A stretch of DNA of 62,826 bases. It comes from a virus. The position numbers were made by a program, and so were the translations under genes. The notes under the pieces were generated by a model. That model saw only the letters and a program-made list of their open reading frames with translations. It did not search any database and had not been told where the DNA came from. Of the stretch, positions 28,885 through 57,053 are shown piece by piece (position 1 is the first letter of the stretch; every line of letters starts with the position of its first letter). The stretch spans positions 1 through 62,826 of IMG/VR virus record IMGVR_UViG_3300023292_000010. One strand, 5' to 3'.

Positions 28885-29331
28885 TTATCTTAACCTTTGT
28901 AGGAATACGGAGAGCTCTACCGGCTCATTGCTGTTTATAACTTTAAATATAATTGTTGCGGAGACGGCGTTACTGTCTGGTACATGTTGTGCTTCAATTC
29001 TTATGATTTGTGCACGTGGCTCGTTGTTCTCTATAGCCGTGAGGATACGTTGCTCTATAAGGAATGCTGTGTTGTCGTCTGCGAGTTCGAATAGCAGATC
29101 ACGTATAGAAGAGCCGAATGATGGAAGGAATGGCTTCTCGTTATAATTCGTGAGGATTATGTTCTTCACGGATTGCTTTACGGAAGCGGCGTCATACTTC
29201 TTGTAAACGTCTCCTGTCGTCTTCTTTGCGAATGACAGATCTATGTCTATGAACTGTCGTTGGCGACTGCCTACTATTATAGACGATGATAGATTTCTGT
29301 CTTCGTACGATAGAACTTTAGTAATAGCCAT
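28885..29331 (-). CDS. 25: Baseplate wedge protein gp25
   Basis: 148 aa (T4: 132). Lysozyme-like-fold wedge component that primes sheath assembly. Conserved residues include 'DIDLSFAKK', 'VKQSVKNIILTNYNEKPF', 'PSFGSSIRDLLFE' and the 'RILTAIENNEPRAQI' helix, the family's EPR core. Its own late promoter lies just upstream and gp6 follows directly, as in T4-like phages generally. Confidence 0.95.
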   Translation of the reverse strand: MAITKVLSYEDRNLSSSIIVGSRQRQFIDIDLSFAKKTTGDVYKKYDAASVKQSVKNIILTNYNEKPFLPSFGSSIRDLLFELADDNTAFLIEQRILTAIENNEPRAQIIRIEAQHVPDSNAVSATIIFKVINSNEPVELSVFLQRLR

Positions 29332-29353
29332 TATATTCTTTTCTTTTTCCTTT

Positions 29354-29361
29354 TATTTATA
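29354..29361 (-). promoter_or_regulatory. T4-type late promoter for gp25/gp6
   Basis: A perfect TATAAATA on the minus strand 23 bp upstream of the gp25 ATG, at the left end of the repeat-rich non-coding segment. Confidence 0.72.
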
Positions 29362-29683
29362 GACGAAACGGGTGGCTTAATGATCACTGAAATGTGTTAT
29401 TTTTAGTGTGACTCGAAGAAAAGGTGATTCGAGATTTCATTAGATATTATTGTGAAGTTGTGAAGTTCTATATAGTGTGAATTGTGAAGTTGTGAACATG
29501 AAATCTCGGTGATCATTTATGATCAATTATGAGGTGTTATGTGTGTTTGTATATCATAAATGATCGATTGTAATAGGCCGAACGTTGCCTCTTATAAGCC
29601 GTTTGGATGTATAATGGGTCATATGTGACCTGTTACGTGAGAACTGATTATTTCTTATGAGAACCGATTACTATGTGCAAGTA
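29362..29683. repeat. Non-coding segment with iteron-like direct repeats and nested inverted repeats
   Basis: The largest gene-free stretch of the window. Five TGTGAA repeats start at 29451, 29459, 29476, 29483 and 29491. They are bracketed by an 11-bp inverted repeat, CGAGATTTCAT (29430-29440) and ATGAAATCTCG (29498-29508). Outside lie a 7-bp pair TGATCAC/GTGATCA (29381, 29509) and a 13-bp pair GATCATTTATGAT (29511-29523)/ATCATAAATGATC (29553-29565). Further right are GGTCATATGTGACC-type palindromic sequence and a direct repeat GAGAAC(T/C)GATTA. No start-to-stop frame of interest. Possible origin, regulatory or recombination site. Confidence 0.75.
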
Positions 29684-32182
29684 TTATGCTACTGAGAAAC
29701 CTTTATTCCAAGTGTGTACTATTTGTATATCAGGACGTCTCCATTCGCTTTCATCATAGTGTATGAAGGTTGGATAGCCACCGATTCCTACTACTACATT
29801 CCGTTCGATTGCATTTGCTTTTAGAATAGACACATACTGATTATATAATGATGGATGTGTGTTCGGGAATAGACGCTCACCGCCAAGAACTAAATAGTGA
29901 TCTGCTGCGTGACCTGGTGGATGGTTTTGTGTTCCACTCGATCTTGGTGCACGTCCACCGTTTGGTGTTATTTGTACTGAATAGCCAGAACCTAATTGTG
30001 CTGCCGCAATTGATATCGCATCAATTATATTTTGATCAGGCATACCACTCGTTTCACCTTTTATAACTGGTGCTCCTGTTCCTTGTCCTGGTTCGGCAAG
30101 TAGATCTATTAGATCATTCGCCGTGGTTTGACCATTGAATTGTGTGGTTGCATTTCTAGAGAAACTACCAGTAAATTCTTCGCTCAACGTTGGCATTGTT
30201 AATATGATTCTCGCCACCATATTACCTGTTGGATCGTATGTATTATAATCTAGAATGATTGACTCATAATGATTGAACGATCTCCAGTATTGTGCAAGTT
30301 TAAATGTTTTGTATGGATCTATTGAGCCTGTTCGGTCTCTTAGAGAATAAACAATTGTTCTTCCTTCAAGTGATGATTCGGCAAGTGAGCCAGAACCGAT
30401 AGTCTCATTTGGATCTTTGCGATAGACACCTTCTTCAACTGTTAGTCTCCAACCCTCAAATCTCTCACCAAGATTATGGAATTGTGCTTGCAGATATAGA
30501 TGACGAGCAATATTATTCTTTTCTTCACGTGTGAATGTGTCGAGTGAAGCCGGATCATTACCTGCAAAGAATTGGCCGACTGTTACGCCAGGTCCGAGTG
30601 GTAATGATAATGTAATATTATTACCGGTTGGATCGTACTGATCAGGTATGAATTCTTTTCTAGTTGCTGGTTCACTATCATATAATGCTGCAACGCTGGA
30701 ACCACCGATTGGTGTGATACCTCTTACTCCTGCCGGTGCGCCAACATTAGATACTGATGTTGGGTTAACATTTACATATCCTGGATTCAATTTGCCTTCA
30801 GTGATTTGTGTATTGATAAACTCAGAAGAACCGGTTGCGTCTGTGTTCTTCATCTTCGAAGCAACTTGTTTTGGTGTTAGTGTTCTGTCTGTTATATCAC
30901 CGTTGTCAAAACCACGATCGATCATATTCTTAAGATTATCACCAACATCTACTTTAACTTTCTTGGTACCTTTACTACTCTTATTGAGATATGATTCCAT
31001 ATTAGCTGCAGTAGGTTTTGCAGATTCTGTTGTATCCACTGGTTCTACAGCTAAACCACCTGTATCATTATTAACAATAGACCAACCAGGATCGCTACCA
31101 AGTCCTGCTGTATAAGAACCAGGTGAAACACCTACACCAGATGACGTGACATACACACCATCATTATATGATTGGTGCAGTGATGTACCAGCAGTAATCG
31201 CCTCCTTCGCCAATCCATCAAGATCACCATTGAATGTTGGTGCATCAATATTATCTGTTGCAAGTACAACTTTAGCTCTGACTGCATCGGATGCCGTGAT
31301 TGTTTCTGAATATACTGTCTTGGATGCTTCCATTGTCTCAGCATATAATGTCTTTTCGAATCGTCCGTTGAAACCATAGAACTGAACGTTCTGTCCACCG
31401 ATCGTACCTTCATCACCAGCGAGAGTCATGTTAGCTGCTGCTATATTCATATTGGGTGATGTGATTACCATCTCACCTTCAGAAGTTGTTGATAGTATTC
31501 CTGAACTCGCAATGATCATATCACCTTCAGATACCATTCTTGATTTACCTTTAGTAATCAACGAATGTCCAGCAAGATTAGTACTTACATTAGCACCAAC
31601 TGTTGTTGAGTTGCGTGAGCCCTTTATGATTGATGTTAAAGAACCATCAACGAATTCTCTCGATGCCATTCCAACCTTTTCAAGTTTAGAACCTTTTACA
31701 TTAAGACTATAATTACCATCAACTGATACGTTGTGATCGCCCGTCACTTTGAGATCTAGATTACCCTTGTATATCATTGTGCCGTTGCCTTCAACGACTA
31801 GATTCTGATCACCCTTTGTGATTTCAATCTTATGATTTTTTGATACTAATACTATCGATCCATCAGGCTTAAATTCTATTCCTGCTCCAGAGGAATGCAT
31901 AATCAAATAACGTTCAGCACCTGGTGTATCGTCAGTTAGAACTACGTGTCCACCTGCTGTTTCTCTGACCTGTACTCGTGGATAATGAGAACCCATCACT
32001 TCAGGTATTTCAACTTGAACACCATCAGGTGCACCACCAGTATCTAAATAATAATTATTGACACCACGTGCAGCTCGATTGATAGATGATTTGTTTTCGT
32101 ATTCTTTTCTCGGGAACTCACCGGATGTACCTGCAAATCCGTCTGGATGAATACCTGTTGTTTCAATTTCTTCGGGTAACAT
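29684..32182 (-). CDS. Tail spike (gp5 C-terminal-like beta-helix) with M15-type peptidase domain
   Basis: 832 aa. The first 300 residues resemble the gp5C/VgrG spike: 'GGHVVLTDDTPGAERYLIMHSSG' then octad-like strands such as 'LDLKVTGDHNVSVDGNYSLNVKG'. The last 110 residues look like a peptidase M15 (D,D- or L,D-carboxypeptidase-like) domain with HPPGHAAD giving His754 and Asp761, and a later FIHYD His808; these would be the three zinc ligands. It would be a spike carrying a peptidoglycan peptidase. It follows two other peptidoglycan-related hub genes with 1-3 nt gaps. Start is the first ATG after a 345-bp gap. Confidence 0.8.
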   Translation of the reverse strand: MLPEEIETTGIHPDGFAGTSGEFPRKEYENKSSINRAARGVNNYYLDTGGAPDGVQVEIPEVMGSHYPRVQVRETAGGHVVLTDDTPGAERYLIMHSSGAGIEFKPDGSIVLVSKNHKIEITKGDQNLVVEGNGTMIYKGNLDLKVTGDHNVSVDGNYSLNVKGSKLEKVGMASREFVDGSLTSIIKGSRNSTTVGANVSTNLAGHSLITKGKSRMVSEGDMIIASSGILSTTSEGEMVITSPNMNIAAANMTLAGDEGTIGGQNVQFYGFNGRFEKTLYAETMEASKTVYSETITASDAVRAKVVLATDNIDAPTFNGDLDGLAKEAITAGTSLHQSYNDGVYVTSSGVGVSPGSYTAGLGSDPGWSIVNNDTGGLAVEPVDTTESAKPTAANMESYLNKSSKGTKKVKVDVGDNLKNMIDRGFDNGDITDRTLTPKQVASKMKNTDATGSSEFINTQITEGKLNPGYVNVNPTSVSNVGAPAGVRGITPIGGSSVAALYDSEPATRKEFIPDQYDPTGNNITLSLPLGPGVTVGQFFAGNDPASLDTFTREEKNNIARHLYLQAQFHNLGERFEGWRLTVEEGVYRKDPNETIGSGSLAESSLEGRTIVYSLRDRTGSIDPYKTFKLAQYWRSFNHYESIILDYNTYDPTGNMVARIILTMPTLSEEFTGSFSRNATTQFNGQTTANDLIDLLAEPGQGTGAPVIKGETSGMPDQNIIDAISIAAAQLGSGYSVQITPNGGRAPRSSGTQNHPPGHAADHYLVLGGERLFPNTHPSLYNQYVSILKANAIERNVVVGIGGYPTFIHYDESEWRRPDIQIVHTWNKGFSVA

Positions 32183-32183
32183 A

Positions 32184-33386
32184 TTAACCTCTTGACTGTA
32201 TTAATTCTGTAGGAGACAAAGATGCTAAATCAAATCCTATTTGAATATTATCTTTATTGAATTTTGTTTTGACATATCTTGATACTGAAAATCCCGGCTC
32301 AATTTGATCTGCTTCGACCTCATTCAAACCAAATGCTTGACCACCAGGCCAAACTGTAAAGTATGCTGACATCAGCAGTTGAAATGATTTCAATTGTGCA
32401 TTTGTTAATGACTCAGAAGCTAGATAGAAATCTGAATTAGATGTACCGGTTGGACAATTATATCCACCAACAAATGCAACCGATATAGAATATTGATCTC
32501 TGTTCTGTGTGTGATCGGCCACCTTATACATTTCTAAGCCACGTTGTATCGTACCATCTTTGCGAATAACTAAATGATATTTTAATCTATTATCTTGGGC
32601 TTCAATATCTTCGACACCGATCAGTCCTTGATCGCTATAATGTCTTGTCCAATGAAACATTACCTCTGTTATATCTCGAGATGTTGCTCTGAACTCAGCT
32701 TCCAATTCTTGTTTAGATCCTATAATCGTATAGTTATTTGACACACCCAATTTAAGTATATTAGATCTAGTGATAGGATTGCTGTCAATGAAATCATCCA
32801 ATAGACTAGACAATGAGGCAAAGTTGGATAATGTACTAGACAATGATGATATGAACCCACCGAGTTCTGAATTGAATAGGGTTGATGTTATTCCTGGCAC
32901 TATGTTAGATATAGCCGACGAAACATATTGTGTTACTTGATCAGGTGATACCGCTTCTAAAGCATTTTGTATTTCTTCCTGACCTTTACCTGTTACCTCA
33001 GTTAAAGCATCATTAATAGCTGAAGGTGTAACAGCACCAAATACTTCATTCAATGCACCATCAACAATACCACCACCTGTTATCGCATTAAGATCTGTTT
33101 CATCACCACCAATAACTGTGGTTAGAATATCTTGTACATCGGGAACGTTTGGTGTTATTGCACCAACTACAATATTTCTAAATTCTTCTGGAAGATTGAT
33201 TGCGTCATTGCCGTCTGTTAATGCTTCGAAGCCACCAATTATCTCACCAATCTCAGAACCCAATTGAGTACCATAGAATGCGAGTCTCTCGTTTATAGCT
33301 TCAGTTGCTGTGCTTCTGATCTTAGATATATCATCAAGCGATGATGCTTGTTTTAAGAATGAGTTGATATCGTTTAAGTCTGCCAT
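32184..33386 (-). CDS. Hub-associated protein with amidase_2/PGRP-like domain (possibly degenerate)
   Basis: 400 aa. The N-terminal 200 residues are low-complexity helical/Gly-Ala-rich. The C-terminal 195 residues match N-acetylmuramoyl-L-alanine amidase/PGRP folds: 'EVMFHWTRHYSDQ' (His245), 'LKYHLVIRKDGTIQRG', 'DQYSISVAFVGGYN', 'LTNAQLKSFQLL'. The usual second zinc-ligand site 'G-H-N-E' reads G-L-N-E (GLNEVEADQIEPGF), so one ligand seems lost and the domain may bind rather than cut the wall. Sits between lysozyme and spike genes. Confidence 0.75.
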   Translation of the reverse strand: MADLNDINSFLKQASSLDDISKIRSTATEAINERLAFYGTQLGSEIGEIIGGFEALTDGNDAINLPEEFRNIVVGAITPNVPDVQDILTTVIGGDETDLNAITGGGIVDGALNEVFGAVTPSAINDALTEVTGKGQEEIQNALEAVSPDQVTQYVSSAISNIVPGITSTLFNSELGGFISSLSSTLSNFASLSSLLDDFIDSNPITRSNILKLGVSNNYTIIGSKQELEAEFRATSRDITEVMFHWTRHYSDQGLIGVEDIEAQDNRLKYHLVIRKDGTIQRGLEMYKVADHTQNRDQYSISVAFVGGYNCPTGTSNSDFYLASESLTNAQLKSFQLLMSAYFTVWPGGQAFGLNEVEADQIEPGFSVSRYVKTKFNKDNIQIGFDLASLSPTELIQSRG

Positions 33387-33389
33387 GAT

Positions 33390-34301
33390 TTATCCATATT
33401 GTGTTAAGATCTGTTTAGCGCGATCAATTCTTTCTGTGATGTTACCCGTACCGGCTGGACGTTCAAATTGATCTTTGAATACTGTAGTTGCTGTCTCGAC
33501 ATTCATTGATCGTGTGAGTGGACCGAGACCGAGAAACTCTTGTGTTGTTAGTTCATACATTAAATATAATAATTGTGCTTTCATTTCATCCCATGGTAAA
33601 CTATGATTTGAAGCAAACTTTTGTAGCTTCTGTAATCTACCAATTGATGGATTCCATTGAGCAATACCTCGTGATCGTTCTGATCCTCCTGCTTCAGCTT
33701 TAGGATTCATAAATGGTGGCGTGCCACCTAACGATACTCCCGACTCAACCGAGAGATTACCTACGATTCCTGCCGCTTGCCAATCAGTAAATCCAGCCTC
33801 AATAAAGAAATTGAAAGCAATCTCATTATTGTTGTTACCGGTGAGTCCGATCGACGATAGTTCATTGTAGTTTTCAAGTTCTGCTAACGTGATATCCGAC
33901 AAATCGTATTCAATTATACCATCAGGACCAACCTCACCGTATCCAGTTGTTCCTTGATTTATTGAGTTGGTTGAGAATACGTTTGGTCCTTCATATCTAG
34001 GTATCGTACCTAATACAATAGGAATCTGTGAACTCTTACCATCAGCAAATATACCTATTACTGTAGCGGTCTCTTCAATTTGTGAATTAGCACCAATACC
34101 GGATACGCCACCTTCAGTTGGCGGTAATACTATACTCGCCCAAGGCAAATCTGCATCAGGTATATCAGCTCTATTGCCTGTGTGTATACCATGAATTCTT
34201 ACTTGAACGCGGCTTATCATTAATGGATCACGAGTACTAATTACAACACCCATCCACCACCTTGTATTATCACCGTAGAACTTATTTTCTATAATCTTCA
34301 T
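33390..34301 (-). CDS. 5: Baseplate hub protein gp5 N-terminal part: OB-fold plus tail lysozyme
   Basis: 303 aa. Residues about 10-115 form the gp5 OB domain ('WWMGVVISTRDPLMISRVQVRI', 'DLPWASIVLPPTEGG', 'VIGIFADGKSSQIPIVLGTI'). Residues about 155-300 match the phage tail lysozyme domain ('FFIEAGFTDWQAAGIVGNLSVESG', with Glu in NLSVESG as candidate catalytic acid, then 'GIAQWNPSIGRLQ'). T4 gp5 has OB, lysozyme and spike in one 575-aa chain cleaved at maturation; here the spike is encoded separately. Start overlaps gp27 by 4 nt. Confidence 0.88.
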   Translation of the reverse strand: MKIIENKFYGDNTRWWMGVVISTRDPLMISRVQVRIHGIHTGNRADIPDADLPWASIVLPPTEGGVSGIGANSQIEETATVIGIFADGKSSQIPIVLGTIPRYEGPNVFSTNSINQGTTGYGEVGPDGIIEYDLSDITLAELENYNELSSIGLTGNNNNEIAFNFFIEAGFTDWQAAGIVGNLSVESGVSLGGTPPFMNPKAEAGGSERSRGIAQWNPSIGRLQKLQKFASNHSLPWDEMKAQLLYLMYELTTQEFLGLGPLTRSMNVETATTVFKDQFERPAGTGNITERIDRAKQILTQYG

Positions 34302-35665
34302 ACACCAATATCCACTCTAGGTTTTCCCCGTGGTCTCGTTGTACCTTCGAGATTGGTAAGTTTAACACCAGTAACGCCTACATCATATCGTTCAGAGCTG
34401 AATGTGTGTCGCGCTGAATATATTAAATATTCTCCTGATTTCTTAATATCAATTGAATCGTCCATATCTTTATGACCATCTGGTTGTATATTTTTAAGGA
34501 ATCGTACCGGGATTGTTCGACCAACGCAATTACTACCTTTACCATTACTCATTAATAGTGCACCAGGTATTTCAAAATCCATTGGGGATTTAGTAATAAA
34601 TTGTCTCATGGATTTACTTATTGATTTGTTGTGATGATTTGAAGAATCAAATATATTATTTACTAATGGATCTGTGTATATACCATTAGAGTATATCTGA
34701 GATGTGTGCGTCGAAGCAACATTATGTAGTCCATCCATAAACTCTTCATCATATAACGGCGCATCCTGTGGTTTGATAGTACCAAAGTTTTTAATATTAT
34801 TATATTGTTTATTGATATCAAATCTATATGTTGTATTGGCTGATGGTTTAATTAGATTTATGAATTGATAATCAGCACCGATTGATCCATTCTTTATAAA
34901 TTTAATTAGCTCTTCACTACGACTTACACGATATTTAGATATTATTCTACTCTGCTTTTCAAGTGATAATGCTCTAGTTTTAGCTGCTGCTGCTTGAGTA
35001 TAAATGAAGGGCGAATTGTTATTAATTAGAATGTTTGAATCGTTAAGGATCTCAGATAGATTAGTAAGTTTCAATCTTTTCTCATCACCGAAACTAGAAT
35101 ACAAATAATATGGCATACCATTAGTATCAGTCAATCGATCTTTAATAAAGAACATAGCTTCCATTGGTGTGAGATATGGAACAATTATTCTAAAATCCTT
35201 TTGAAATATATCACCGTCATAATCTAATGTTCTATCAAGCTCTCCATCATTTATTATATTCTCGAGGATAATGTTAGGTACGTTAGTGTACGATTTACTA
35301 ATAGTTTTTGTTTCACTTTGAAAGTATGAATCTTCAATAAGATTCAACCCTATAACTTCTGTGTTATCGTTAGTCTTGACAGCACCACCAATGCTGTGTA
35401 TATTAAATCTTCTCTTGAATGATTTATTATCATCACTAGGTATTGAGATCTCAAGATCTATAAACTCTGCGCCAAGAAAATCAACACTATTGAATATATC
35501 ATACGTATCAATAAATGTTAAATCGCCGGTTAAATATAGTTTGTCGATGCTCTCATATATATTGATCTGTACTATCATATCAGATATAGAATAAGGCTCA
35601 ACTAATCTATCAGACGAGATGAGGGCTTTCTCAATTACATAGTCAAATGGTGTAAATTCTGGCAT
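34298..35665 (-). CDS. 27: Baseplate central hub protein gp27
   Basis: 455 aa (T4: 391). Trimeric hub that holds gp5. The N-terminal 'YVIEKALISSDRLVEPYSISDMIVQINIYESIDKLYLTGDLTFID' block (key residues VQINIYESID, LTGDL) is the tube-like domain 1. The C-terminal 'SGEYLIYSARHTFSSERYDVGVTGVKL' is the conserved domain shared with VgrG-type proteins. Overlaps gp5 by 4 nt and gp53 by one base. Confidence 0.92.
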   Translation of the reverse strand: MPEFTPFDYVIEKALISSDRLVEPYSISDMIVQINIYESIDKLYLTGDLTFIDTYDIFNSVDFLGAEFIDLEISIPSDDNKSFKRRFNIHSIGGAVKTNDNTEVIGLNLIEDSYFQSETKTISKSYTNVPNIILENIINDGELDRTLDYDGDIFQKDFRIIVPYLTPMEAMFFIKDRLTDTNGMPYYLYSSFGDEKRLKLTNLSEILNDSNILINNNSPFIYTQAAAAKTRALSLEKQSRIISKYRVSRSEELIKFIKNGSIGADYQFINLIKPSANTTYRFDINKQYNNIKNFGTIKPQDAPLYDEEFMDGLHNVASTHTSQIYSNGIYTDPLVNNIFDSSNHHNKSISKSMRQFITKSPMDFEIPGALLMSNGKGSNCVGRTIPVRFLKNIQPDGHKDMDDSIDIKKSGEYLIYSARHTFSSERYDVGVTGVKLTNLEGTTRPRGKPRVDIGV

Positions 35666-37307: not shown

Positions 37308-37817
37308 ATGGCTTATTCTGGACCATACAAGGTTAAAAACAGAGAGAAATATGAGGGAGATCCAGATACTATCACATATAGATCTGGTTGGGAGATGTAC
37401 GCGTTCAAATGGTGCGATGATAGTAAGAGTATTAAGAAGTGGTCGAGCGAAGAGGTAGTTGTACCATACATTTATGATGTTGATAAACGTAGGCACAGAT
37501 ATTATACAGATCTTAAGATTACATTCACCAACGGTAGAACAATACTCGTTGAGATCAAACCAGCTAAACAGACAATTAAACCTAAATTCCCAGGCAAACG
37601 TACTAAGCATTATATAGTTGAAGCGCACACCTATATTAAGAATCAAAACAAATGGGATGCGGCAAAGCTTTATGCAGAGAATCGTGGTTGGCAATTTGAG
37701 ATCTGGACTGAGCACGATCTATATAAAATGGGCATCATGAAGAAACCAATCAAACCTCTAAAAAAGCTCAAACCTTTAAAACCATTAAGAGTTAAAAAGC
37801 CGAAGAAAAAGGTATAA
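37308..37817 (+). CDS. 4: Head completion protein gp4 (TnsA-like nuclease fold)
   Basis: 169 aa (T4: 150). Stabilises DNA-filled heads and enables tail joining. Family hallmarks are 'SGPYKVKNREKYEGDPDTITYRSGWE', 'KWSSEEVVVPYIYDVDKRRHRYYTDL' and 'TILVEIKPAKQT' (E-x-K like the nuclease fold's catalytic strand). The Lys/Pro-rich tail (KPLKKLKPLKPLRVKKPKKK) is an extension absent from the core family. First gene of the plus-strand block. Confidence 0.93.
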   Translation: MAYSGPYKVKNREKYEGDPDTITYRSGWEMYAFKWCDDSKSIKKWSSEEVVVPYIYDVDKRRHRYYTDLKITFTNGRTILVEIKPAKQTIKPKFPGKRTKHYIVEAHTYIKNQNKWDAAKLYAENRGWQFEIWTEHDLYKMGIMKKPIKPLKKLKPLKPLRVKKPKKKV

Positions 37818-37825
37818 ATAGAACT

Positions 37826-38407
37826 ATGAATTTGTTCCAAAAATTACAGTTTGAGGCCTTCCGTGCCGGTATTAAACCACGATCTCGAGAGTCGAGAATT
37901 TGGTTCAGGAAGAAGGTAGGCGGTCTTACCAACATCAACAGATCTAGCCTGATGAATGAAGATCCGATCGAGAAGAGATCTAAATACATCGCGGGAAATA
38001 TGTTTATGTTCTTCTACGATCCTAAGCATAAGGGTACGTTACCATATTATGATAAGTTCCCTCTCGTTGTTGTCGTTGGACCTGCGAAAGGTGGATTCTA
38101 TGGTTTGAATCTACATTATCTCCCACCACCGCTTCGAGCTAAGTTTCTCGATTCATTATTGGATATTCTAAACAATAAGAAGTATGACGAGAGTACACGA
38201 TTCAAGGCATCCTATCGATTGCTGCTTAGTGTGTCAGAACTCAAATACTTTAAACCATGCTTCAAGCATTATCTACACGATCATGTTAAAAGCCAATTTG
38301 CTTATGTACCTCCACCTGAATGGGAGATTGCAATATTTTTAGAAACAGCAGACTTTGCAAAAGCAAGTAAGAGCAAAGTATATAAAGACTCAAGAGGTAA
38401 GATCTAA
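37826..38407 (+). CDS. Conserved T4-like virion/assembly protein (perhaps DNA end protector gp2-like)
   Basis: 193 aa. It has 'GNMFMFFYDPKHKGTLPYYDKFPLVVVVGPAKGGFYGLNLHYLPPPLRA' (key blocks LPYYDKFPLV, GFYGLNLHYLPP) and a basic N-terminus. I have the impression such proteins next to gp4 are annotated as DNA end protectors in marine T4-like phages (T4 order is gp3-gp2-gp4), but I cannot verify that. Stop overlaps the next start by one base. No catalytic motif. Confidence 0.6.
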   Translation: MNLFQKLQFEAFRAGIKPRSRESRIWFRKKVGGLTNINRSSLMNEDPIEKRSKYIAGNMFMFFYDPKHKGTLPYYDKFPLVVVVGPAKGGFYGLNLHYLPPPLRAKFLDSLLDILNNKKYDESTRFKASYRLLLSVSELKYFKPCFKHYLHDHVKSQFAYVPPPEWEIAIFLETADFAKASKSKVYKDSRGKI

Positions 38408-38946
38408 TGCCACACAATGTAGATCTATTAAAATCAGCATTAAAGAGACACAGAGGCTTATCGAAGTCTAATCAGTATTTGGTGTGTCTACCAGATATAC
38501 CGGGTTCTACGTTAAGTGGCGCGGATCGTGATATACTATGCAAAGCTACTAAAGTGCCAGGCATACAAAATATGTCACACAACCGAGCAATAGGTATGGA
38601 GATCGAGAAGGTCGCATGGGGTTATGCAGTACAAGATATGGACCTAACGTTCCATGTAACACAGGATCAAAAGATTCGAGAATACTTTGCTTTGTGGTCA
38701 AGATTGGCTGTTGATCATAATGCTAATACTATTGGATATAAGAAAGATTATCAAAAGGAAATAAAGATCCTTACTAAATATTATGATACAGAGATAATAG
38801 GCTCAAGAGCCTGGTCTTCTGAGATTATACTTGAGGATTCATTCCCGACAACAATTAACGCTATAGAATTAAATAATGAGATTGATGGATTAATGGATTT
38901 GAACGTTCAGATCTCATATACAAAATGGAGAACTAGATACAAATGA
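38407..38946 (+). CDS. Tail-tube-fold protein (gp54/gp19-like)
   Basis: 179 aa, close in size to tube protein gp19 (163). Features are 'SNQYLVCLPDIPGSTLSGADRDILCKATKVPGIQ' (beta core) and 'YAVQDMDLTFHVTQDQKIREYFALWSRL', then 'IILEDSFPTTINAIELNNEID' ending in a 'VQISYTKWR' strand. True gp19 should lie next to gp18 beyond the left edge, so this copy beside gp26 is more likely the tube initiator gp54 in shortened form. Assignment between gp54 and gp19 is uncertain. Confidence 0.72.
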   Translation: MPHNVDLLKSALKRHRGLSKSNQYLVCLPDIPGSTLSGADRDILCKATKVPGIQNMSHNRAIGMEIEKVAWGYAVQDMDLTFHVTQDQKIREYFALWSRLAVDHNANTIGYKKDYQKEIKILTKYYDTEIIGSRAWSSEIILEDSFPTTINAIELNNEIDGLMDLNVQISYTKWRTRYK

Positions 38947-39653
38947 GCTTACCTAAATTAAATGACACACCCAAACATAGTGTAATAATACCATCAACAG
39001 GACAGAAAGTTAGATTCAGACCGTTTCTTGTTAAAGAGGAAAAGATCCTCATGATGGCCATTGAGTCCGAGAATCAAACCAATGCCTTGAATGCTGTAGC
39101 TGAAACGATTGATATGTGTATTAGTGAAAATATTGACAGAGATGCTTTAAAGATCTTTGATATAGAATATCTATTCACTAAGATTAGATCGAAATCGGTC
39201 GGGGAATCAATCCCATTAATTATCGGATGTTCAGAATGTAAACACCAAAATCCTGTTGATGTAGATATTAGCAATATTGAGATTGAAGTACCTAAGGTTG
39301 ATAATATTATCAGATTAAATAGTGAAATTTCTATTGAAGTTGAATGGCCAAATTATGAAAAGGTAATTAACAATAAGAATATAACTAATAGTGAATCAGA
39401 CATTGGTCTTATTGTAGATATGGCAGCAGATTCAATAGTAGCCATAATGACTGAAGACGATAGAACAATTGCAAAAGATCAAAAGAGATCAGATATTATT
39501 GATTTCGTTGAATCTATGGATACGGATCAATTTGTCTTGGTCCAAAAGTATTTAGAGAAAATGCCTAGAGTGACAAAAGAGATCAAATTCAAATGTAATG
39601 AGTGTGAAACCGATAATAAAATTAGTTTAGAGAATATAAACGATTTTTTTTAA
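38943..39653 (+). CDS. 26: Baseplate hub assembly protein gp26 / tail assembly chaperone (0 frame)
   Basis: 236 aa (T4 gp26: 208). Conserved start 'SLPKLNDTPKHSVIIPSTGQ' with 'VRFRPFLVKEEKILMMAIES', and two CxxC zinc-like pairs, CSECKHQNPVDVDIS (about residue 99) and CNECETDNKISL near the C-terminus. It ends at a slippery run with NDFF then TAA. An alternative product arises by -1 frameshift (see next entries). Followed by the probable tape measure, matching the chaperone-before-tape-measure order of other tailed phages. Overlaps the tube-fold gene by 4 nt. Confidence 0.85.
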   Translation: MSLPKLNDTPKHSVIIPSTGQKVRFRPFLVKEEKILMMAIESENQTNALNAVAETIDMCISENIDRDALKIFDIEYLFTKIRSKSVGESIPLIIGCSECKHQNPVDVDISNIEIEVPKVDNIIRLNSEISIEVEWPNYEKVINNKNITNSESDIGLIVDMAADSIVAIMTEDDRTIAKDQKRSDIIDFVESMDTDQFVLVQKYLEKMPRVTKEIKFKCNECETDNKISLENINDFF

Positions 39654-39694
39654 TATGGTCTTCTGGGGAGAACCTGGTATCTCACTATAAGACC
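39644..39694 (+). promoter_or_regulatory. Programmed -1 frameshift signal (T8 slippery run plus stem-loop)
   Basis: Eight consecutive T (39644-39651) directly before the gp26 stop allow tandem slippage on TTT TTT. Six nt downstream, GGTCTT (39657-39662) pairs with AAGACC (39689-39694), and inside it GAGA (39668) can pair with TCTC (39680). Spacer and stem geometry match known -1 frameshift elements. Confidence 0.75.
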
Positions 39695-39820
39695 AACTTC
39701 GCACTTATGATACACCACGGATTTAGTTTAACTGAATTAAATGAAATGTTCCCCTTTGAGCGCGAACTTTATATGATATTATTAGTTCAGCATATCGAAG
39801 AGAGAGAAAAAGATGAGTAG
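39650..39820 (+). CDS. gp26 frameshift extension (C-terminal 56 aa of the fusion product)
   Basis: Read in the -1 frame from the slip site, the chain continues LIWSSGENLVSHYKTNFALM, IHHGFSLTELNEMFPFEREL, YMILLVQHIEEREKDE and stops at 39818-39820, overlapping the next gene's ATG at 39813. The result is a 292-aa fusion. The extension is helical with hydrophobic 'YMILLVQHIEE', like the T part of G/GT-type tail chaperones. It has no good independent start near the slip site; the first internal ATG (39707) gives only 36 residues. Confidence 0.78.
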   Translation, partial: LIWSSGENLVSHYKTNFALMIHHGFSLTELNEMFPFERELYMILLVQHIEEREKDE

Positions 39821-41234
39821 TATAAAAGACCTAATAGATGTGATGGAAAATCACAATAAAGAGACTAATTCTAAACTCCAAAAGATATCGGATACTTTAG
39901 CAAACGGATCTTCTTCCGGTGGTGTAAGTAAATTCGCATCTAGAATAAGATCTGGGATTATGTCACCTATTACAAAAGTTAAAAGTGCTTATAATAATAT
40001 AACAGCTGCGCCAGGCAGAATGATAAGTGGTATTAAGTCTAAGATTACAAGCCCGTTTAAAGGTCTTGGCGGGATATTAAACGTATTCTCTAATAGTAAT
40101 GATAAGGCTTTAAGTAAATATAATAAACCTATTCTGAAAGAATTGATTGATATTAATAAAAAATTAGCAGGTATTATCAACACTCGTAAAAGAGGTGCTC
40201 TTGATAATCTTGAAGAAACTATTGAAACCAGAAGAAATAAAGGCCGCACATTAGCAATGGGTGGGCTATTGGCTGCTAATGCAAATAATGCCCCAGGCGC
40301 GCCGCCTAAAGAAGAATCCTGGTGGAAAAAGATCTTACCTCTTGCAGCTGCTTTTGATCTAGGTAATCTTAAAACTGGCGTTACCGGTATGATTGGAGGA
40401 GCTCTTGCGTTTGTTGGAAAACAATCGTGGCGTTTAACAAAATCTGTTGCCAAAGGTCTGTGGTCAGCTACTAAGGGTGCGGGTACTTTACTAAGAGGAA
40501 CTGGCGCAGGATTGGCTTCTTTGTCAACGAGATTGAGAGGTGCATTGCCAGGATTATTAAAGGGTGGGTCAAAACTTGGCGGAAGACTCCTTCCTGGAGT
40601 TGGATGGGCTCTTTTAGCAGCGGACGCAAAATTGCTTATGAATAGAATGACTTCATTTGGTAGTACTCTTCCCCCTAATGCTGAGAATTTAAACTACTTC
40701 GATCCAGGGAAGCGTGAAGACGAAGCTACTGAAACCGGTCCAGGTACCTGGGACGAACGTATGTGGGCAACAGGACAACACGAAGAACAACTAAGACCTC
40801 GCGACCCAAATTCAGGGATAGATGTAATACCAGGGTTTGGTGCAGCATATCCAAGTCAGGGTTGGGGCGCTGAAGTCAATATGCCGAATGAACAAACCCG
40901 TATATACCGTGCGCCAAATCCCTCAAGGTTGTTTAATGGGGATCCTATGATGGATGCAGATCCAATATTAATGAACGGTGGACCTTTATTTATTAAATCT
41001 GATAAAGAAATAATAGTAGATAGACCACTAATAAAGATCAACGTAGGATCTGTTAGTAGAATTGGGGAGATATTAAGTGATCCAGCTACCTTCCGAGAAG
41101 GTAGTCCTATCTCAACAATTGTTATGCCTTCAGATAATAGTGTTACCACTAATAATATTGTAGACGGTAGTGGTGGTTCCAATAATAATATGCAACCAAC
41201 AAGACAGGACTTGGAAGCAGCAGGCGCACACTAA
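39813..41234 (+). CDS. Probable tape measure / tail length protein (gp29-like position)
   Basis: 473 aa (T4 gp29: 590). N-terminal charged helix 'IKDLIDVMENHNKETNSKLQKISDTL', then a Gly/Ala/Leu-rich amphipathic region (about residues 190-285: 'IGGALAFVGKQSWRLTKSVAKGLW', 'GAGLASLSTRLRGALPGLLKGG') as in tape measure proteins, then a Pro/Asn-rich tail. It follows the chaperone frameshift pair, the standard spot for a tape measure. No sequence-level orthology to gp29 recognised, so the call is by context and composition. Confidence 0.68.
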   Translation: MSSIKDLIDVMENHNKETNSKLQKISDTLANGSSSGGVSKFASRIRSGIMSPITKVKSAYNNITAAPGRMISGIKSKITSPFKGLGGILNVFSNSNDKALSKYNKPILKELIDINKKLAGIINTRKRGALDNLEETIETRRNKGRTLAMGGLLAANANNAPGAPPKEESWWKKILPLAAAFDLGNLKTGVTGMIGGALAFVGKQSWRLTKSVAKGLWSATKGAGTLLRGTGAGLASLSTRLRGALPGLLKGGSKLGGRLLPGVGWALLAADAKLLMNRMTSFGSTLPPNAENLNYFDPGKREDEATETGPGTWDERMWATGQHEEQLRPRDPNSGIDVIPGFGAAYPSQGWGAEVNMPNEQTRIYRAPNPSRLFNGDPMMDADPILMNGGPLFIKSDKEIIVDRPLIKINVGSVSRIGEILSDPATFREGSPISTIVMPSDNSVTTNNIVDGSGGSNNNMQPTRQDLEAAGAH

Positions 41235-51229: not shown

Positions 51230-52204
51230 TTAAATTCTATATTGCTCCATAGTGAAGTCGCCTGCTGTTAATTTATTATAATCGGCTTCAAAATTTGACC
51301 AAACTAAACTATCGGGAGCATCATATAACATATCACAATTCTTACAATAATCGACTTCATCAAATCGGTGTTCCTTATGCATTTTTCGTAAATGATTATA
51401 TGGTTCACCGTTCCAAATTTCATCAATGGTTTGGTCTGATAAATGACCCATTACAGCTTTAGAATCCTGTCCTAGAACTAAACAACAAGGTACTACTGCG
51501 CCTGTTTTCCCATCATTACCACCAGCTCGAACGATAAGATCTGGGGAGAATGGTCGACCGCACGATCTTTTTTCTGGTTTCTCGCGCCATGTTACCTCAT
51601 CATAAATGCCGCTCCAATTGTGCATTTTCCATATTGACGATTTAATACCTGGGACATGATCAATCCAATTTTTTCTATATTTATCAACATCATTCCACGC
51701 CTCATCATTATTAAGAATAAGGTGATATGACCCTAATGTAGTTTTTGCACCAACATCTTCTATATATTTAGTCATAGCAATGGCATTATCTCGAACGGAT
51801 ATAAAGTTGTCTTCGCTCATCCATTTATGATATGTCTCAGGATCGTATCCGGTAACTGAAAATCTAACAAAATGTAATCCGTGATCAACAAGACCTTTCA
51901 TTACATCACCCTCAATAAGAGATCCGTTAGAAATAAAACTCATCTTAAATCCTCGATCAATACCGGCTGTAATAAATTGATTTAATCGTTTATGCATTGT
52001 CGGTTCACCAGATCCCTCAAGGAAGATCTCTTTAACTTCAGAATCCATTAGTTGATCAAGAGTGTCTTTAAATAGTTCGAGCTTCATCATTCGTTTAAAT
52101 GATTTTTCGCGACCTCCCATAACCTCTGCTTGTGGACAAAATGCGCACGAATAATTACAAGATCCGCACACCTCTATAACTGCTTTTTTGATTGGTAATG
52201 TCAT
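51230..52204 (-). CDS. Radical SAM protein with C-terminal SPASM-like domain
   Basis: 324 aa. Core motif CNYSCAFC at residues 16-23, then 'FLEGSGEPTMHKRLNQFI' and 'SFISNGSL', with 'HFVRFSVTGYDPETYHKWM' as later strands. C-terminal Cys pairs in SCGRPF, VVPCCLVLG and DYCKNCDML fit SPASM auxiliary iron-sulfur clusters, found in peptide- and sugar-modifying enzymes. Overlaps the glycosyltransferase-like gene by 4 nt. Confidence 0.88.
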   Translation of the reverse strand: MTLPIKKAVIEVCGSCNYSCAFCPQAEVMGGREKSFKRMMKLELFKDTLDQLMDSEVKEIFLEGSGEPTMHKRLNQFITAGIDRGFKMSFISNGSLIEGDVMKGLVDHGLHFVRFSVTGYDPETYHKWMSEDNFISVRDNAIAMTKYIEDVGAKTTLGSYHLILNNDEAWNDVDKYRKNWIDHVPGIKSSIWKMHNWSGIYDEVTWREKPEKRSCGRPFSPDLIVRAGGNDGKTGAVVPCCLVLGQDSKAVMGHLSDQTIDEIWNGEPYNHLRKMHKEHRFDEVDYCKNCDMLYDAPDSLVWSNFEADYNKLTAGDFTMEQYRI

Positions 52205-53106
52205 TTTAATAAGATCTCTTTAGTTCTTTCTATAATTTCGTCATTAGTAAAAACCGGATAATGAAATCTTGGTTCATCTAAATACATTCGTTTATGCTTA
52301 TAATTATACATTAGGGTTTTGCCAACTGGTGTACCCACCTTATTCCATATACTAGATTTTATAGTCTCGGTAGCAGGTGCATCAATTGATGCAATAGGAT
52401 TACGATCTACATATTCATGGTGAACTTTTTTACCAAATTGAACTGTTGGGGTATTTGTAATCGCTGCTAAATAATACGTAGAACCTAAATATCCAAAATG
52501 TGCTTTTGCATTGATCATTAGTTCATATACCTCTGATATTGGGGTAGTATAATCTATCTCTTTTATATCATATCCCAATTCAGTAGCCTTGAATTTTATC
52601 AAAGATACTGATGATGGTAAATTTATTCTATGCCCATCCTTAGGACTATGTTGTATTTCCCCATGGGATTGAAGGGTAATGTAATCACTATCTGTACCAT
52701 TATTTATTTTTTTCGTATTCCATAAAGAGTAAAAACCATATGGTGAATCCATTCTAGATCTCATTTTAAGTGATTCATAAACAGATACTACAACACCACC
52801 ATCAGGGTCTCTAAAGTTTTCGACAATCCACAGAATGCGATCTAGCATCGTCTCAGGGTCTTCATCTTTAACTTTTAAATAAGCTGATTCACTAACAACA
52901 ACTGAGATCTTATATGGCCTATCAGTAATTTTTTCTTCGTTATACATTTGGGCCTTTGAGAATGTGTGACTAAGTAAAGCTATTATTGGGGCATAGGCAC
53001 TTGCATCATCTTTAGATATTCTAATTATTTCTGAATTATTAGGATCAACTATACCACAAGGATTACACCCTTTATAAAACGTTTTAATATGCTTTATATC
53101 ACTCAT
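52201..53106 (-). CDS. Glycosyltransferase-like protein (paralogue B)
   Basis: 301 aa, paralogue of 48678-49586 (shared 'IALLSHTFSKAQMYNEE', 'LDRILWIVENFRDPDGG', 'IKEIDYTTPISEVYELMINAKAHFGYLGSTYYLAAITNTPTVQFG'). The second copy ends with 'TPTVQFG', even closer to GT-B glycosyltransferases of the heptosyltransferase type. Positioned between two radical SAM genes with 4-nt overlaps on both sides. Function inferred from fold resemblance only. Confidence 0.55.
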   Translation of the reverse strand: MSDIKHIKTFYKGCNPCGIVDPNNSEIIRISKDDASAYAPIIALLSHTFSKAQMYNEEKITDRPYKISVVVSESAYLKVKDEDPETMLDRILWIVENFRDPDGGVVVSVYESLKMRSRMDSPYGFYSLWNTKKINNGTDSDYITLQSHGEIQHSPKDGHRINLPSSVSLIKFKATELGYDIKEIDYTTPISEVYELMINAKAHFGYLGSTYYLAAITNTPTVQFGKKVHHEYVDRNPIASIDAPATETIKSSIWNKVGTPVGKTLMYNYKHKRMYLDEPRFHYPVFTNDEIIERTKEILLK

Positions 53107-54317
53107 AGAAATTCTTTTAATTCTTTTAATTCTGGTACATATTCAAGAAGGTCAAATCCCCGAACCTCATTCATTTTCTCTATCCATCTAAAGGATCTTT
53201 TAAGATTTTCAAAATCACCTATTTTTGGATCTACGTCAGTTAATACAGGTCTAAATTGTACGTTTGGGTATTCCTTAAATGCATATTTATATTTTTGTTG
53301 TTGAAATTCGATGATGTCTTTAGGTAAATTCTGAATTTTAATATAATTTGGCCAATAAGAAATATTTGTTATGTTGATACCTCTTACGTATTCTTTATCA
53401 TAAAAATATTCTACAATCTTTTCTAATGAAAAGAAATTAAACATAGAAACAAATGGTATTATAAGCACCTTTCGTCCTGTAACATCATAATATTTTTCCA
53501 TGTTAGCAACGGTTTTTTCAAAATTGCCACCTCGAATCCAATCATATTCCTTACCTATTCCATCTATAGATGCTGAGATGTTAAAACAAGCTTTTGCAGG
53601 TTTTACCTTTTCTAGCATTTTAAATGTACTTTGTGATATGGTCTGCATATTAGAAACTATTTCAGTCATACATTGGGGATTTACATCAATCATTCTCTCG
53701 AGAATTTTTAAATTGTTTTTATCTGCAAAAGGTTCGCCACCTTTAACGGTTAAAATATCCAGTCCAGGTAGAACTTCTAATATTTTATCTATGTCACTCT
53801 TACCTAATCTAACAATGTCATGAATCGTATTTTTAGAAAAATCATCCTTCTCACTTTTCGTAAACGTTTTATTAAGATCTCTCCATTTCGAACTAAAAAA
53901 ACTACCACATGAAACACATGTTTGATTACACATATTAGAACAAGTATATTCTAAATATCTAACAGGTCTATTAACATTCAGTTTTCGATTTTTCCAATCT
54001 TCATCAAAATGGTTTTCAGAATACTTATAAAAATCAAATATGCCCATCATACTTTGTTTGTGATTTATGAACATTTTGGCACAGTTATTACAAGCAGGTA
54101 GATCTGATATTTTACCGGCTTCCATCTTTTCTCTAACGTGTTCCATTTCTGCGCTATTATATATTTCTTCTAAAGAAGAGACTTCAGAGATGTGTGCAAT
54201 AGTGTCATTCGTGGAATTACAACACAAAACAATATACCCTCTTGGATTTATTGTAATACCGCTAAATGGTGCTTTACATATAACTTTTCGTCTAGATAAA
54301 TATTCTTCATGTGACAT
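53103..54317 (-). CDS. Radical SAM protein with N-terminal twitch/SPASM-like domain
   Basis: 404 aa. Unusually, the auxiliary-cluster-like Cys residues come first ('VICKAPFSGITINPRGYIVLCCN', 'LPACNNCAKM', about residues 12-80), then the radical SAM core CNQTCVSC at about 131-138 and 'ILTVKGGEPFADKNNLKIL'. This N-terminal twitch plus core layout occurs in a known subset of radical SAM proteins. Overlaps both neighbours. Confidence 0.86.
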   Translation of the reverse strand: MSHEEYLSRRKVICKAPFSGITINPRGYIVLCCNSTNDTIAHISEVSSLEEIYNSAEMEHVREKMEAGKISDLPACNNCAKMFINHKQSMMGIFDFYKYSENHFDEDWKNRKLNVNRPVRYLEYTCSNMCNQTCVSCGSFFSSKWRDLNKTFTKSEKDDFSKNTIHDIVRLGKSDIDKILEVLPGLDILTVKGGEPFADKNNLKILERMIDVNPQCMTEIVSNMQTISQSTFKMLEKVKPAKACFNISASIDGIGKEYDWIRGGNFEKTVANMEKYYDVTGRKVLIIPFVSMFNFFSLEKIVEYFYDKEYVRGINITNISYWPNYIKIQNLPKDIIEFQQQKYKYAFKEYPNVQFRPVLTDVDPKIGDFENLKRSFRWIEKMNEVRGFDLLEYVPELKELKEFL

Positions 54318-55326
54318 CTTCGTCTACCAATCTATCTAATAGCCAATTTGAGAATTGATTATTAATCAAATGATTTACTGTTTCATAATTAGTTGAACCA
54401 ATTTTTATATCTAATAATTCACCATTAAGAGTGTCTATTATATTTTTAATTTCTTTTGATGGGAGATTCCATATTGCCAAATGCTCTGGGTATCTAATAG
54501 TGTTATACCACAGCGTGTTCTTATTTTTTCCTGTCCATTTTGCAAAATTTACCATTTCATCCCAATTATTTCTCATTGGGTTTACCATGATGGAAATTCT
54601 CTTACCTTTATCAATATGATATTGATTAAAGATTTCATAGTTCTTCATTAACTTATCAAACTTACCATTAATTCTAATAGCTTCATATCTCTCTGGGATG
54701 AGACTATCAATACTGATATTTAGAACAACATTACATTCTTCGAGAAGTTTTATTACATTTTTGTTATATACTGTACCATTAGTTGCAAGACTCACAACTA
54801 GATCTGGATTTAATATCTTTACTCTTTCACAGATATCATATACGATTTTCTGGGATAAAGGTTCCCCTCCATTAAATCTGAGTTCTTTAAGGTGCGGTAT
54901 AAACTCATCCATTTGTCTAACGAAACTATCACCATAAATTTGTTTGAGCGGTGGGAGCTTTTCTCTATTTTTTCTAATCCCAGAACTTAATAATCCCTGA
55001 CACATAGTACATTCAAGGTTACATTTGTTACTCAATTCAAGTTCCATTAGTGAGGGATATTCTTGAATGGGAAAATTGTCATAAGCTTTAGCTAAAGGCC
55101 AAACGCCCTCGTCAGATTCCTTTTTACAAAGCTGACATTTAGGGTTATTATATACCTGATTGTTATGATCTTCTCTGAGTTTTTTGTAACCTTCCCCAAA
55201 CCAAATATCTCTTATGGAATTCTCTTCTGACCAATCACTAATATACCCAGGGGTTAACCAGCACGGGGCTGCGTGACCCAGAACAGTAAAATACATATTA
55301 TTAAAGGGTGCTTTACACTTCATCAT
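54307..55326 (-). CDS. Radical SAM protein with N-terminal twitch/SPASM-like domain
   Basis: 339 aa. Same layout as the previous gene: N-terminal 'KCKAPFNNMYFTVLGHAAPCW', 'PKCQLCKKES', then the core CNLECTMC at about residues 100-107, 'LRFNGGEPLSQKIVYDI' and 'VVLNISIDSLIPERYEAIRIN'. The start overlaps the SPASM-like gene by 14 nt. The two enzymes may be a duplicated pair acting in sequence. Confidence 0.86.
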   Translation of the reverse strand: MMKCKAPFNNMYFTVLGHAAPCWLTPGYISDWSEENSIRDIWFGEGYKKLREDHNNQVYNNPKCQLCKKESDEGVWPLAKAYDNFPIQEYPSLMELELSNKCNLECTMCQGLLSSGIRKNREKLPPLKQIYGDSFVRQMDEFIPHLKELRFNGGEPLSQKIVYDICERVKILNPDLVVSLATNGTVYNKNVIKLLEECNVVLNISIDSLIPERYEAIRINGKFDKLMKNYEIFNQYHIDKGKRISIMVNPMRNNWDEMVNFAKWTGKNKNTLWYNTIRYPEHLAIWNLPSKEIKNIIDTLNGELLDIKIGSTNYETVNHLINNQFSNWLLDRLVDEDVT

Positions 55327-55735
55327 CTTCTTCTATTTTAATAAGGGGATTAAATGGATTCTCGACAGTACAATGTTTTGTACATATGGAAGATATTTTA
55401 TCCGAATCGTCCCACGAATCATATAATTCTTGAAACCATTTATGATCCAATATATCTTCAATATCATTATTAAATATATTGAGATCTTTTTCGTTGTCTA
55501 TATATGATTTTAAAATAGGGTCGTGCACGGTTTTACGAGCGCTAGAAGGATAATTAACTAGAGCATATTCTAATGGATATTCATCGGGTTTTTCGTATGT
55601 ATCTGGATAACCAAACTGCTTACTAACAAATATATTATTAGCAAAATAACAGCATGGAATGACCTGACCGTCGGGGTTAATAACTATTCGTTTTCTGTTC
55701 ATCCATTCACATGATATACATGGACTATTACTCAT
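55313..55735 (-). CDS. Freestanding SPASM-like iron-sulfur protein
   Basis: 140 aa with no radical SAM core. Cys groups: SPCISCEW at the N-terminus, 'INPDGQVIPCCYF' and 'SSICTKHCTVENP' at the C-terminus. Pattern matches SPASM auxiliary-cluster modules with the catalytic barrel deleted. Could supply an accessory cluster or bind substrate for a neighbouring radical SAM enzyme. Overlaps both flanking genes. Confidence 0.68.
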   Translation of the reverse strand: MSNSPCISCEWMNRKRIVINPDGQVIPCCYFANNIFVSKQFGYPDTYEKPDEYPLEYALVNYPSSARKTVHDPILKSYIDNEKDLNIFNNDIEDILDHKWFQELYDSWDDSDKISSICTKHCTVENPFNPLIKIEEDDEV

Positions 55736-57053
55736 TCTTGAAATCCTTTATTCTTTTGAGGTCTTTTTCATTATTTAAATAAAGATCTCTCCAAAAAATA
55801 TCACCAAATTCATCAAATGTGCTTTGTTCTAAACTGTCGTCTTTACTGTCTTCGTTGATGAACTTAAATTTATTTGATTCACCGCCACTATGATGAAATC
55901 TATTAGAAGGAACAAAGAAGACAGTTTCAGCACCATTTTCTTTTGCAAGAAGGGCTATTTCATATAAGTCATCCTGATTGTGTTTAAATACTACAGTAAA
56001 AACTCTAGTTTTTGTTTTTGTACTAGAGATGGTTATAAGATTATCAAGTACCAATGACAATGACGTTTTTCTTCTATATTTACTATGTTGCTCTTGATTA
56101 ATACCGTCTATATCAAACGTTACATTTAATCTATCACCACACAGTATACCTAAATCCCACCACCAATCCGGTGTTCTGATACTCCCGTTTGTGTTGATCA
56201 TAATTTTACAATTACTATTTTGTATTACATATTTAATAATCTTAAAGATATCCTTATTCATTATAGGATCTCCCCAAGTACCACATAGCTCAAATTTAGA
56301 GAATCTTTTCATAGATTCAACGGGAAATGATTTCTTGAAATATTCAAAAGACCACTGTATTAATGGTAACCAATTTGACTTGTCTAATCCATCAGGATTT
56401 GTACGATGACATTGTGGACATGCCGCATTACAATATGTGGATAAATCTACCCACATAATTAAATCTTTATTGGTATAATGATCTTTATATTTCTTTAATT
56501 TTGATAATGACAATGCTTTATCCACAATGGTTTCTATTTTATCCTCATCAATAATATCTTCAAAATAGAATATATGATCAAAATTAAAAGTTTTTAAAGA
56601 TCTAGAATTTATTTCTTTAAAATGATTTGCTTTTTCAATAATATCTACATCACTGGGATAATATTCCTCGAATTTTAATTCTTCTCGAACTAGTTTAGAA
56701 CCCCACCCATAAGATGATAAGGTTCCCCAGTAATTATTGTGTATTGCTATTAAATCGGATTCTGCCTGCGCGTCAAGATCTCTTCTTTTTAATAATATAA
56801 AAACGTCAAAGTGTTCTTTTAGATCTAGTCCGGATCTACAAAGTTTCTCATACATATCCAAATTACATTTTATAATTAAAGGGTCTATATGTGAGTATTT
56901 ATCGAAATATTCAATCAATGATATTGATCTTTTTTGATGATCGTGGAATAATTCCCGAGGAATTTTATTGTTTATTCCCCACCGTTCTCTAAGTTTAAAT
57001 GTAAAATAGTGTGATGCAGTTCTGTTGCTATAGATTATTAAAATTTTAGCCAT
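55728..57053 (-). CDS. Sulfotransferase-like domain fused to a radical SAM domain
   Basis: 441 aa. Residues about 1-190 look like a sulfotransferase-type P-loop fold: 'ILIIYSNRTASHYFTFKL' (5' phosphosulfate loop) and 'FILLKRRDLDAQAESDLIA' (3' loop). Residues about 205-420 have the radical SAM motif CNAACPQC and 'FELCGTWGDPIMNKDIFKII', 'NVTFDIDGINQEQHSKYRR'. Fusion of these two activities is unusual. The first radical SAM gene in transcription order. Confidence 0.72.
   Translation of the reverse strand: MAKILIIYSNRTASHYFTFKLRERWGINNKIPRELFHDHQKRSISLIEYFDKYSHIDPLIIKCNLDMYEKLCRSGLDLKEHFDVFILLKRRDLDAQAESDLIAIHNNYWGTLSSYGWGSKLVREELKFEEYYPSDVDIIEKANHFKEINSRSLKTFNFDHIFYFEDIIDEDKIETIVDKALSLSKLKKYKDHYTNKDLIMWVDLSTYCNAACPQCHRTNPDGLDKSNWLPLIQWSFEYFKKSFPVESMKRFSKFELCGTWGDPIMNKDIFKIIKYVIQNSNCKIMINTNGSIRTPDWWWDLGILCGDRLNVTFDIDGINQEQHSKYRRKTSLSLVLDNLITISSTKTKTRVFTVVFKHNQDDLYEIALLAKENGAETVFFVPSNRFHHSGGESNKFKFINEDSKDDSLEQSTFDEFGDIFWRDLYLNNEKDLKRIKDFKNE

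Follow-up and report, generated by a model that had tools for sequence, protein, structure and literature searches.

It is common for a phage tail to carry two or three peptidoglycan hydrolase folds, each of which is usually assumed to cut a different bond. The locus analysed here raises the question of how much cutting is needed for entry, and of the purpose of the remaining folds. The window, by which the whole stretch of 62,826 nucleotides is meant, is a 62.8-kb fragment of an uncultured T4-like virus of bacteria and matches IMG/VR contig 3300035698_016083. Relatives of terminase, gp2, gp19, gp26, gp32, gp53, gp25 and gp6 are encoded in it, and no tRNA gene was found. The minus-strand order is gp53, gp27, 33390, 32184, 29684, gp25 and gp6, in which 33390-34301, 32184-33386 and 29684-32182 form three intact, abutting open reading frames. 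The first-pass annotation had described a hub spike split over three genes with three wall-directed folds, and both the reading frames and the domain matches bear this out. The features are as follows.

34298-35665, minus strand: gp27-like hub protein, context, adjoining the three hub genes (PHROG_350, E 2e-33)
33390-34301, minus strand: gp5-like hub gene, OB adaptor plus Phage_lysozyme2, 303 aa (PHROG_430, E 4e-30; PF18013, E 1.8e-26)
33954-34274, minus strand: OB-fold domain of 33390, residues 10-116 (phmmer to T4-type gp5 chain 9f4a, E 3e-12)
33396-33830, minus strand: Phage_lysozyme2 domain of 33390, residues 158-302 (PF18013; clade alignment)
32184-33386, minus strand: hub-slot amidase-fold gene, 400 aa, predicted non-catalytic (PF01510, E 3.6e-7)
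32721-33386, minus strand: N-terminal region of 32184, residues 1-222, no fold assigned, much longer in relatives
32262-32678, minus strand: Amidase_2/T7-lysozyme-like domain of 32184, residues 237-375 (alignments to T7 lysozyme and phage endolysins)
29684-32182, minus strand: spike gene, 832 aa (PHROG_430, E 9e-32; PDB T4 gp5, E 7.5e-16)
31268-31999, minus strand: gp5C-type beta-helix of 29684, residues about 62-305 (PHROG_430; octapeptide repeats)
30083-30655, minus strand: zinc-less pseudo-M15 (M15_3-like) of 29684, residues about 510-700 (clade profile against phage M15_3 profile)
29687-30049, minus strand: extra MepK-like M15 domain of 29684, residues 712-832 (zinc motif H754, D761, H808)
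28885-29331, minus strand: gp25 baseplate wedge, context (PF04965, E 7.5e-12)

Between the spike gene and gp25, a 350-bp stretch without an evident gene (29332-29683) contains repeated CACAACTTCACAA-like stretches. Divergent from the hub operon, gp2-like, gp19-like and gp26-like genes and their neighbours occupy 37308-41234 on the plus strand. Further along, at least four radical-SAM-like proteins, recognised by PHROG matches only, lie consecutively at 51230-52204, 53103-54317, 54307-55326 and 55728-57053.

Gene 33390 had been read as a gp5 OB domain joined to a lysozyme-like domain, and the family matches listed above agree with this. The Pfam Gp5_OB model scores 23.4 bits, slightly under its 25-bit cut-off, and the PF18013 lysozyme domain reaches 93.4 bits against a cut-off of 28.2. 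The PDB chains matched by the protein are T4 gp5 and phi29 gp13. The catalytic Glu186 (33744-33746) is intact and aligns opposite E45 of phi29 gp13, and the GIAQW motif is likewise intact. This lysozyme remains a plausible cutter, predicted to act on the glycan strand.

The amidase/PGRP-like domain that had been noted in gene 32184 is also present, with a PF01510 score of 31 bits against a cut-off of 26, which places it in the family by descent. Its active site is another matter, since the zinc triad and catalytic Lys expected of an Amidase_2 enzyme are not retained. The first zinc His (H245) and the equivalent of Tyr46 (Y270) are kept. In the alignment with T7 lysozyme, H122 corresponds to L354 (or Asn355), K128 to Q361 and C130 to E363, a position held by Asp in the amidases of relatives. 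The triad H-H-C has thus become H-L-E, with both the second and third ligands and the catalytic Lys lost. No His is found in 32184 past residue 292, which leaves no simple substitute zinc ligand. With two of the three ligands and the Lys gone, the muramoyl-alanine bond is probably left uncut, and the amidase is probably silent in this phage. In PGRP-LB, loss of the zinc Cys ligand abolishes zinc binding, and animal PGRPs without zinc are non-catalytic, binding peptidoglycan without cutting it (PMC8124813). As for the region upstream of the domain, the whole protein ranges from 400 to 912 aa among relatives, with a median of 623. In one of them (L078, 7864-9822) the N-terminal part matches tape-measure PHROGs 305 and 58, which hints at contact of the amidase protein with the lumen or the tape measure.

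The third gene, 29684, had been described as a beta-helix spike ending in an M15-type peptidase. Residues 63-171 match residues 384-492 of T4 gp5, and five consecutive gp5C-type VxGxxxxx octapeptides are located at residues 130-169. The beta-helix carries a 500-residue extension, in which two M15-like domains of different kinds can be distinguished. The first is degenerate. In an hhalign comparison its clade profile matches (E 6e-6, probability 85%) that of the phage M15_3 domain with which gp5 ends in Cr30, pf16 and Melnitz, and which further phages carry fused to PAAR. The zinc motif is in register in 0 of 215 clade copies. This pseudo-M15 is common to the whole clade, within the spike in 56 loci and as its own gene in 123 (about two thirds), and its search against 50,697 named phage records gave no match. 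The second domain, at the very end, keeps the M15 zinc motif, H754-x6-D761 and H808 following the order of E. coli MepK. A profile built from eight relatives aligns with MepK (hhalign E 7e-5, probability 63%), and the corresponding extension of the spike is recognised as Peptidase_M15_3 in the relatives L183, L186 and L188 (PF08291, 26.5 bits against a cut-off of 23.2). The M15 assignment comes from these profiles of relatives: the end of the window's own spike gave no match by Pfam (E 10), BLAST, phmmer, PF05951 or PF08291, and aligned pairwise with MepK on its own it gives a weak result (shuffle p 0.03). A single-sequence AlphaFold model of the spike C-terminus was poor (pLDDT 38.7) and was not interpreted. 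The terminal domain remains a plausible cutter, which probably cleaves stem peptides. Its identification with the M15_3 tip of Cr30 was considered and rejected, as the counterpart of that tip is the preceding zinc-less domain.

About 230 environmental relatives were gathered in three scans; the beta-helix alignment from named phages was too variable for use as a scan query. OB domain and spike are encoded in separate genes in 133 of 134 distinct loci, and in 128 of the 134 an amidase gene separates OB-lysozyme from spike. A sequencing frameshift as the source of the split is thereby rejected, and the split hub is a trait of the clade, not a peculiarity of this phage. This clade-wide split had escaped the first-pass annotation, as had the degenerate M15-like domain and the lost amidase zinc site. 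The survey also reveals traffic of modules. A homologue of the window's extra M15, 52% identical and found only in the hub of a related phage, is fused to the amidase protein in L095, and L039 has a VanY there. Together with the M15 copies on the spikes of L183, L186 and L188, this indicates that M15 modules move between the ends of the spike and amidase proteins. The lysozyme slot itself varies. In L095 (6992-7867) and L201 (2456-3310) a different, Pfam-unassigned domain follows the OB domain; it carries AEG/KSEG and GPFQL motifs and is possibly another lysozyme type. A CHAP domain (Pfam) fills the slot in Ochrobactrum phage ORM_20 (L006, 7001-7912), and an apparent VanY-like M15, recognised by motif, fills it in Melnitz (L009, 1422-2462). 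The last two cases suggest that the OB gene is a cassette for varied wall hydrolases.

The states of the two catalytic sites were then compared in 125 distinct loci, scored by the lysozyme Glu and by the amidase zinc triad (H, H, C/D). L095, L201 and L204, with a different slot domain, and L206, L169 and L052, which are truncated, were left out of the counts. Both sites are kept in 35 loci, the lysozyme site only in 38 (the window included) and the amidase site only in 50. Only two loci, L051 and L100, keep neither, compared with about 17 expected under independence. The first 53 loci had given 10, 17, 24 and 2 in the same order (both, lysozyme only, amidase only, neither; Fisher p 3e-5, uncorrected for kinship). 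Kinship inflates such locus counts, and the losses were therefore placed on a tree of gp27, gp53, gp25 and gp6 with 100 dereplicated rows, in an event test whose premise is an ancestor that had both sites and no regain of a lost one. The amidase site was lost 12 times, once on a lysozyme-dead background that makes up 39% of the eligible branch length (p 0.024). The lysozyme site was lost 13 times, never on an amidase-dead background (34% of eligible length, p 0.0045). Under a strict lysozyme call, for which both Glu and Gln are considered, five lysozyme losses remain (p 0.087) and the amidase side gives p 0.003. Over 25 random rootings the amidase-side p stays within 0.0001-0.027, and support is weaker on a tree of the spike gene (p 0.012-0.06 and 0.06-0.3). 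The direction of loss is alike in all variants, and the strength on the lysozyme side varies with the tree and the site definition. Site states cluster strongly on the tree, and too few pairs were informative in independent-pair sign tests. Second residues follow the first: many Glu-less lysozymes also lack the Gln of GIAQW, and many dead amidases lack Tyr46. The dead domains are nevertheless under purifying selection and not decaying, with a median dN/dS of 0.098 for the amidase and 0.068 for the lysozyme, compared with 0.063 and 0.095, respectively, in intact domains. The loss pattern suggests that one cutter suffices.

These results bear directly on how the three folds could work. The first-pass annotation had proposed an attack on three different bonds, in which active enzymes hit the glycan strand, the muramoyl-alanine bond and the stem peptide in one entry event. 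The presence of all three folds speaks for such an attack, as do the 35 relatives that keep both scored sites, among which L183, L186, L188 and L039 also have an M15, so that other members of the clade may have triple-active hubs. For this phage it is distinctly improbable in view of the missing equivalents of H122, K128 and C130 in 32184 and of the zinc-less first M15 domain. Another reading is that the altered amidase is still active through other ligands, namely Glu363, Asn355 or the lone Cys311, an idea that draws on the kept H245 and Y270 and on the Asp that replaces Cys130 in relatives. With Leu or Asn at the H122 position, Gln at that of Lys128, no C-terminal His and the precedent of PGRP-LB, this is hardly credible. 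The alternative suggested by the same annotation, that one domain serves for binding only, fits better in kind, although the count must be raised to two, the amidase and the clade-wide zinc-less M15-like domain.

A different objection concerns whether 32184 belongs to the tail at all. Its domain is nearest to T7-type endolysins, and it could be a lysis amidase that lies in the hub operon by chance and stays outside the virion. This is improbable given its fixed slot in 128 of 134 loci, its long N-terminal region, the M15 modules common to the amidase protein and the spike, and the repeated loss of its active site under purifying selection. An amidase that is dead in about 12 lineages is not the working endolysin of those phages, which argues for a role in the virion. 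The exclusion between the two sites might, on the other hand, reflect kinship or cassette swapping, through a few old losses, block exchange of hubs or host-wall preference, with no redundancy involved. The strong clustering of states on the tree, the weaker event test under other trees and definitions, and the swapping of the OB-slot hydrolase among phages all point that way. Such an origin is nonetheless rather unlikely, as at least five lysozyme and about 12 amidase losses fall on separate branches, and each of the 25 random rootings has at most one amidase loss on a lysozyme-dead background.

The best explanation, to which we assign a probability of about 0.68, is a T4-like hub and spike whose folds are kept as building or peptidoglycan-contact parts, with about one of the two enzymes, lysozyme or amidase, having to be catalytic. 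Gene order, domain assignments, the residue losses with their reciprocal pattern and the purifying selection are observed, and the presence of the proteins in virions, their enzymatic activities and a binding role of the silent domains are inferred. The gp27-like protein and the OB domains would form the hub and the beta-helix the needle, and the pseudo-M15 end would contribute to the tip, no PAAR having been found across the window. During entry the lysozyme would cleave glycan strands and the extra M15 possibly stem peptides. The amidase, being silent, would be retained as a wall-contact or structural part; together with the first M15 domain it is a predicted pseudoenzyme, either binding the wall or holding the spike together. 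In sister lineages the roles would be exchanged, the amidase cutting and the lysozyme being silent. Whether the whole clade follows one rule, by which about one wall-cutting activity is needed, sites are switched off reciprocally, folds are kept and fresh M15 modules are added at the spike and amidase ends, we regard as evenly poised. The unusual cell wall whose entry the first-pass annotation had thought the three folds might explain is not needed, since phages that infect ordinary Gram-negatives, such as Cr30 and RHph_I1_18, have hubs with at least two hydrolase folds. More than 100 natural hubs with the lysozyme or amidase site broken, almost never both, make the opening question testable. 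If the clade-wide rule is true, tail-tip hydrolases would be scaffold first and enzyme second. Labels such as "tail amidase" or "tail peptidase" need a check of metal ligands, which is relevant to phage-derived antibacterials.

Precedents exist for split hubs, M15 tips and multi-enzyme hubs. Reciprocal loss is apparently new: the pattern was not found described in the open-access literature on inactive tail hydrolases, which is weak evidence of absence. The amidase fold of 32184 is that of T7 lysozyme and the non-catalytic PGRPs, here placed in a hub operon with its site lost many times over. In the last domain of the spike, the H-x6-D, GxG-YP and F-H-x-D motifs are those of E. coli MepK (YcbK, DUF882, Peptidase_M15_2), although the window's domain is below the Pfam score. 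The hub gp15 of Anabaena phage A-1(L) contains lysozyme, endoglucanase and peptidase folds, two of which are reported to be active (PMC10966104); it likewise has three hydrolase folds, but these are united in a single hub protein, in a myophage of a different kind, and without a comparative loss pattern. Nearer to the window is Rhizobium phage RHph_I1_18 (MN988519), with an OB plus Phage_lysozyme2 gene, an intervening gene and a helix spike with an M15_3-like end. Its intervening gene, however, encodes 116 aa without an amidase, and its M15 keeps the zinc motif. Methylophilales phage Melnitz also has its OB gene split from the spike gene and an M15_3 tip; its OB gene differs in apparently holding the VanY-like M15 instead of a lysozyme, and no amidase gene intervenes. 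In Caulobacter phage Cr30, gp5 unites OB, Phage_lysozyme2, beta-helix and an M15_3-like end in a single polypeptide, without an amidase. T4 gp5-gp27 has the same order of OB adaptor, lysozyme and trimeric VxGxxxxx beta-helix beside gp27, in one gp5 chain, which is cleaved after assembly at a point that separates lysozyme from helix (PMC3004832). Its lysozyme is of the T4L type, whereas that of the window is of the phi29 gp13 type (PF18013), and the window adds the amidase-fold gene in between and the M15-like domains at the end. Where T4 gp5 is cut at Ser351/Ala352, the window has separate genes, and in the clade this cut is in effect encoded by the split genes. The protein that T4 matures by cutting thus exists, already split into genes, in a widespread environmental clade.
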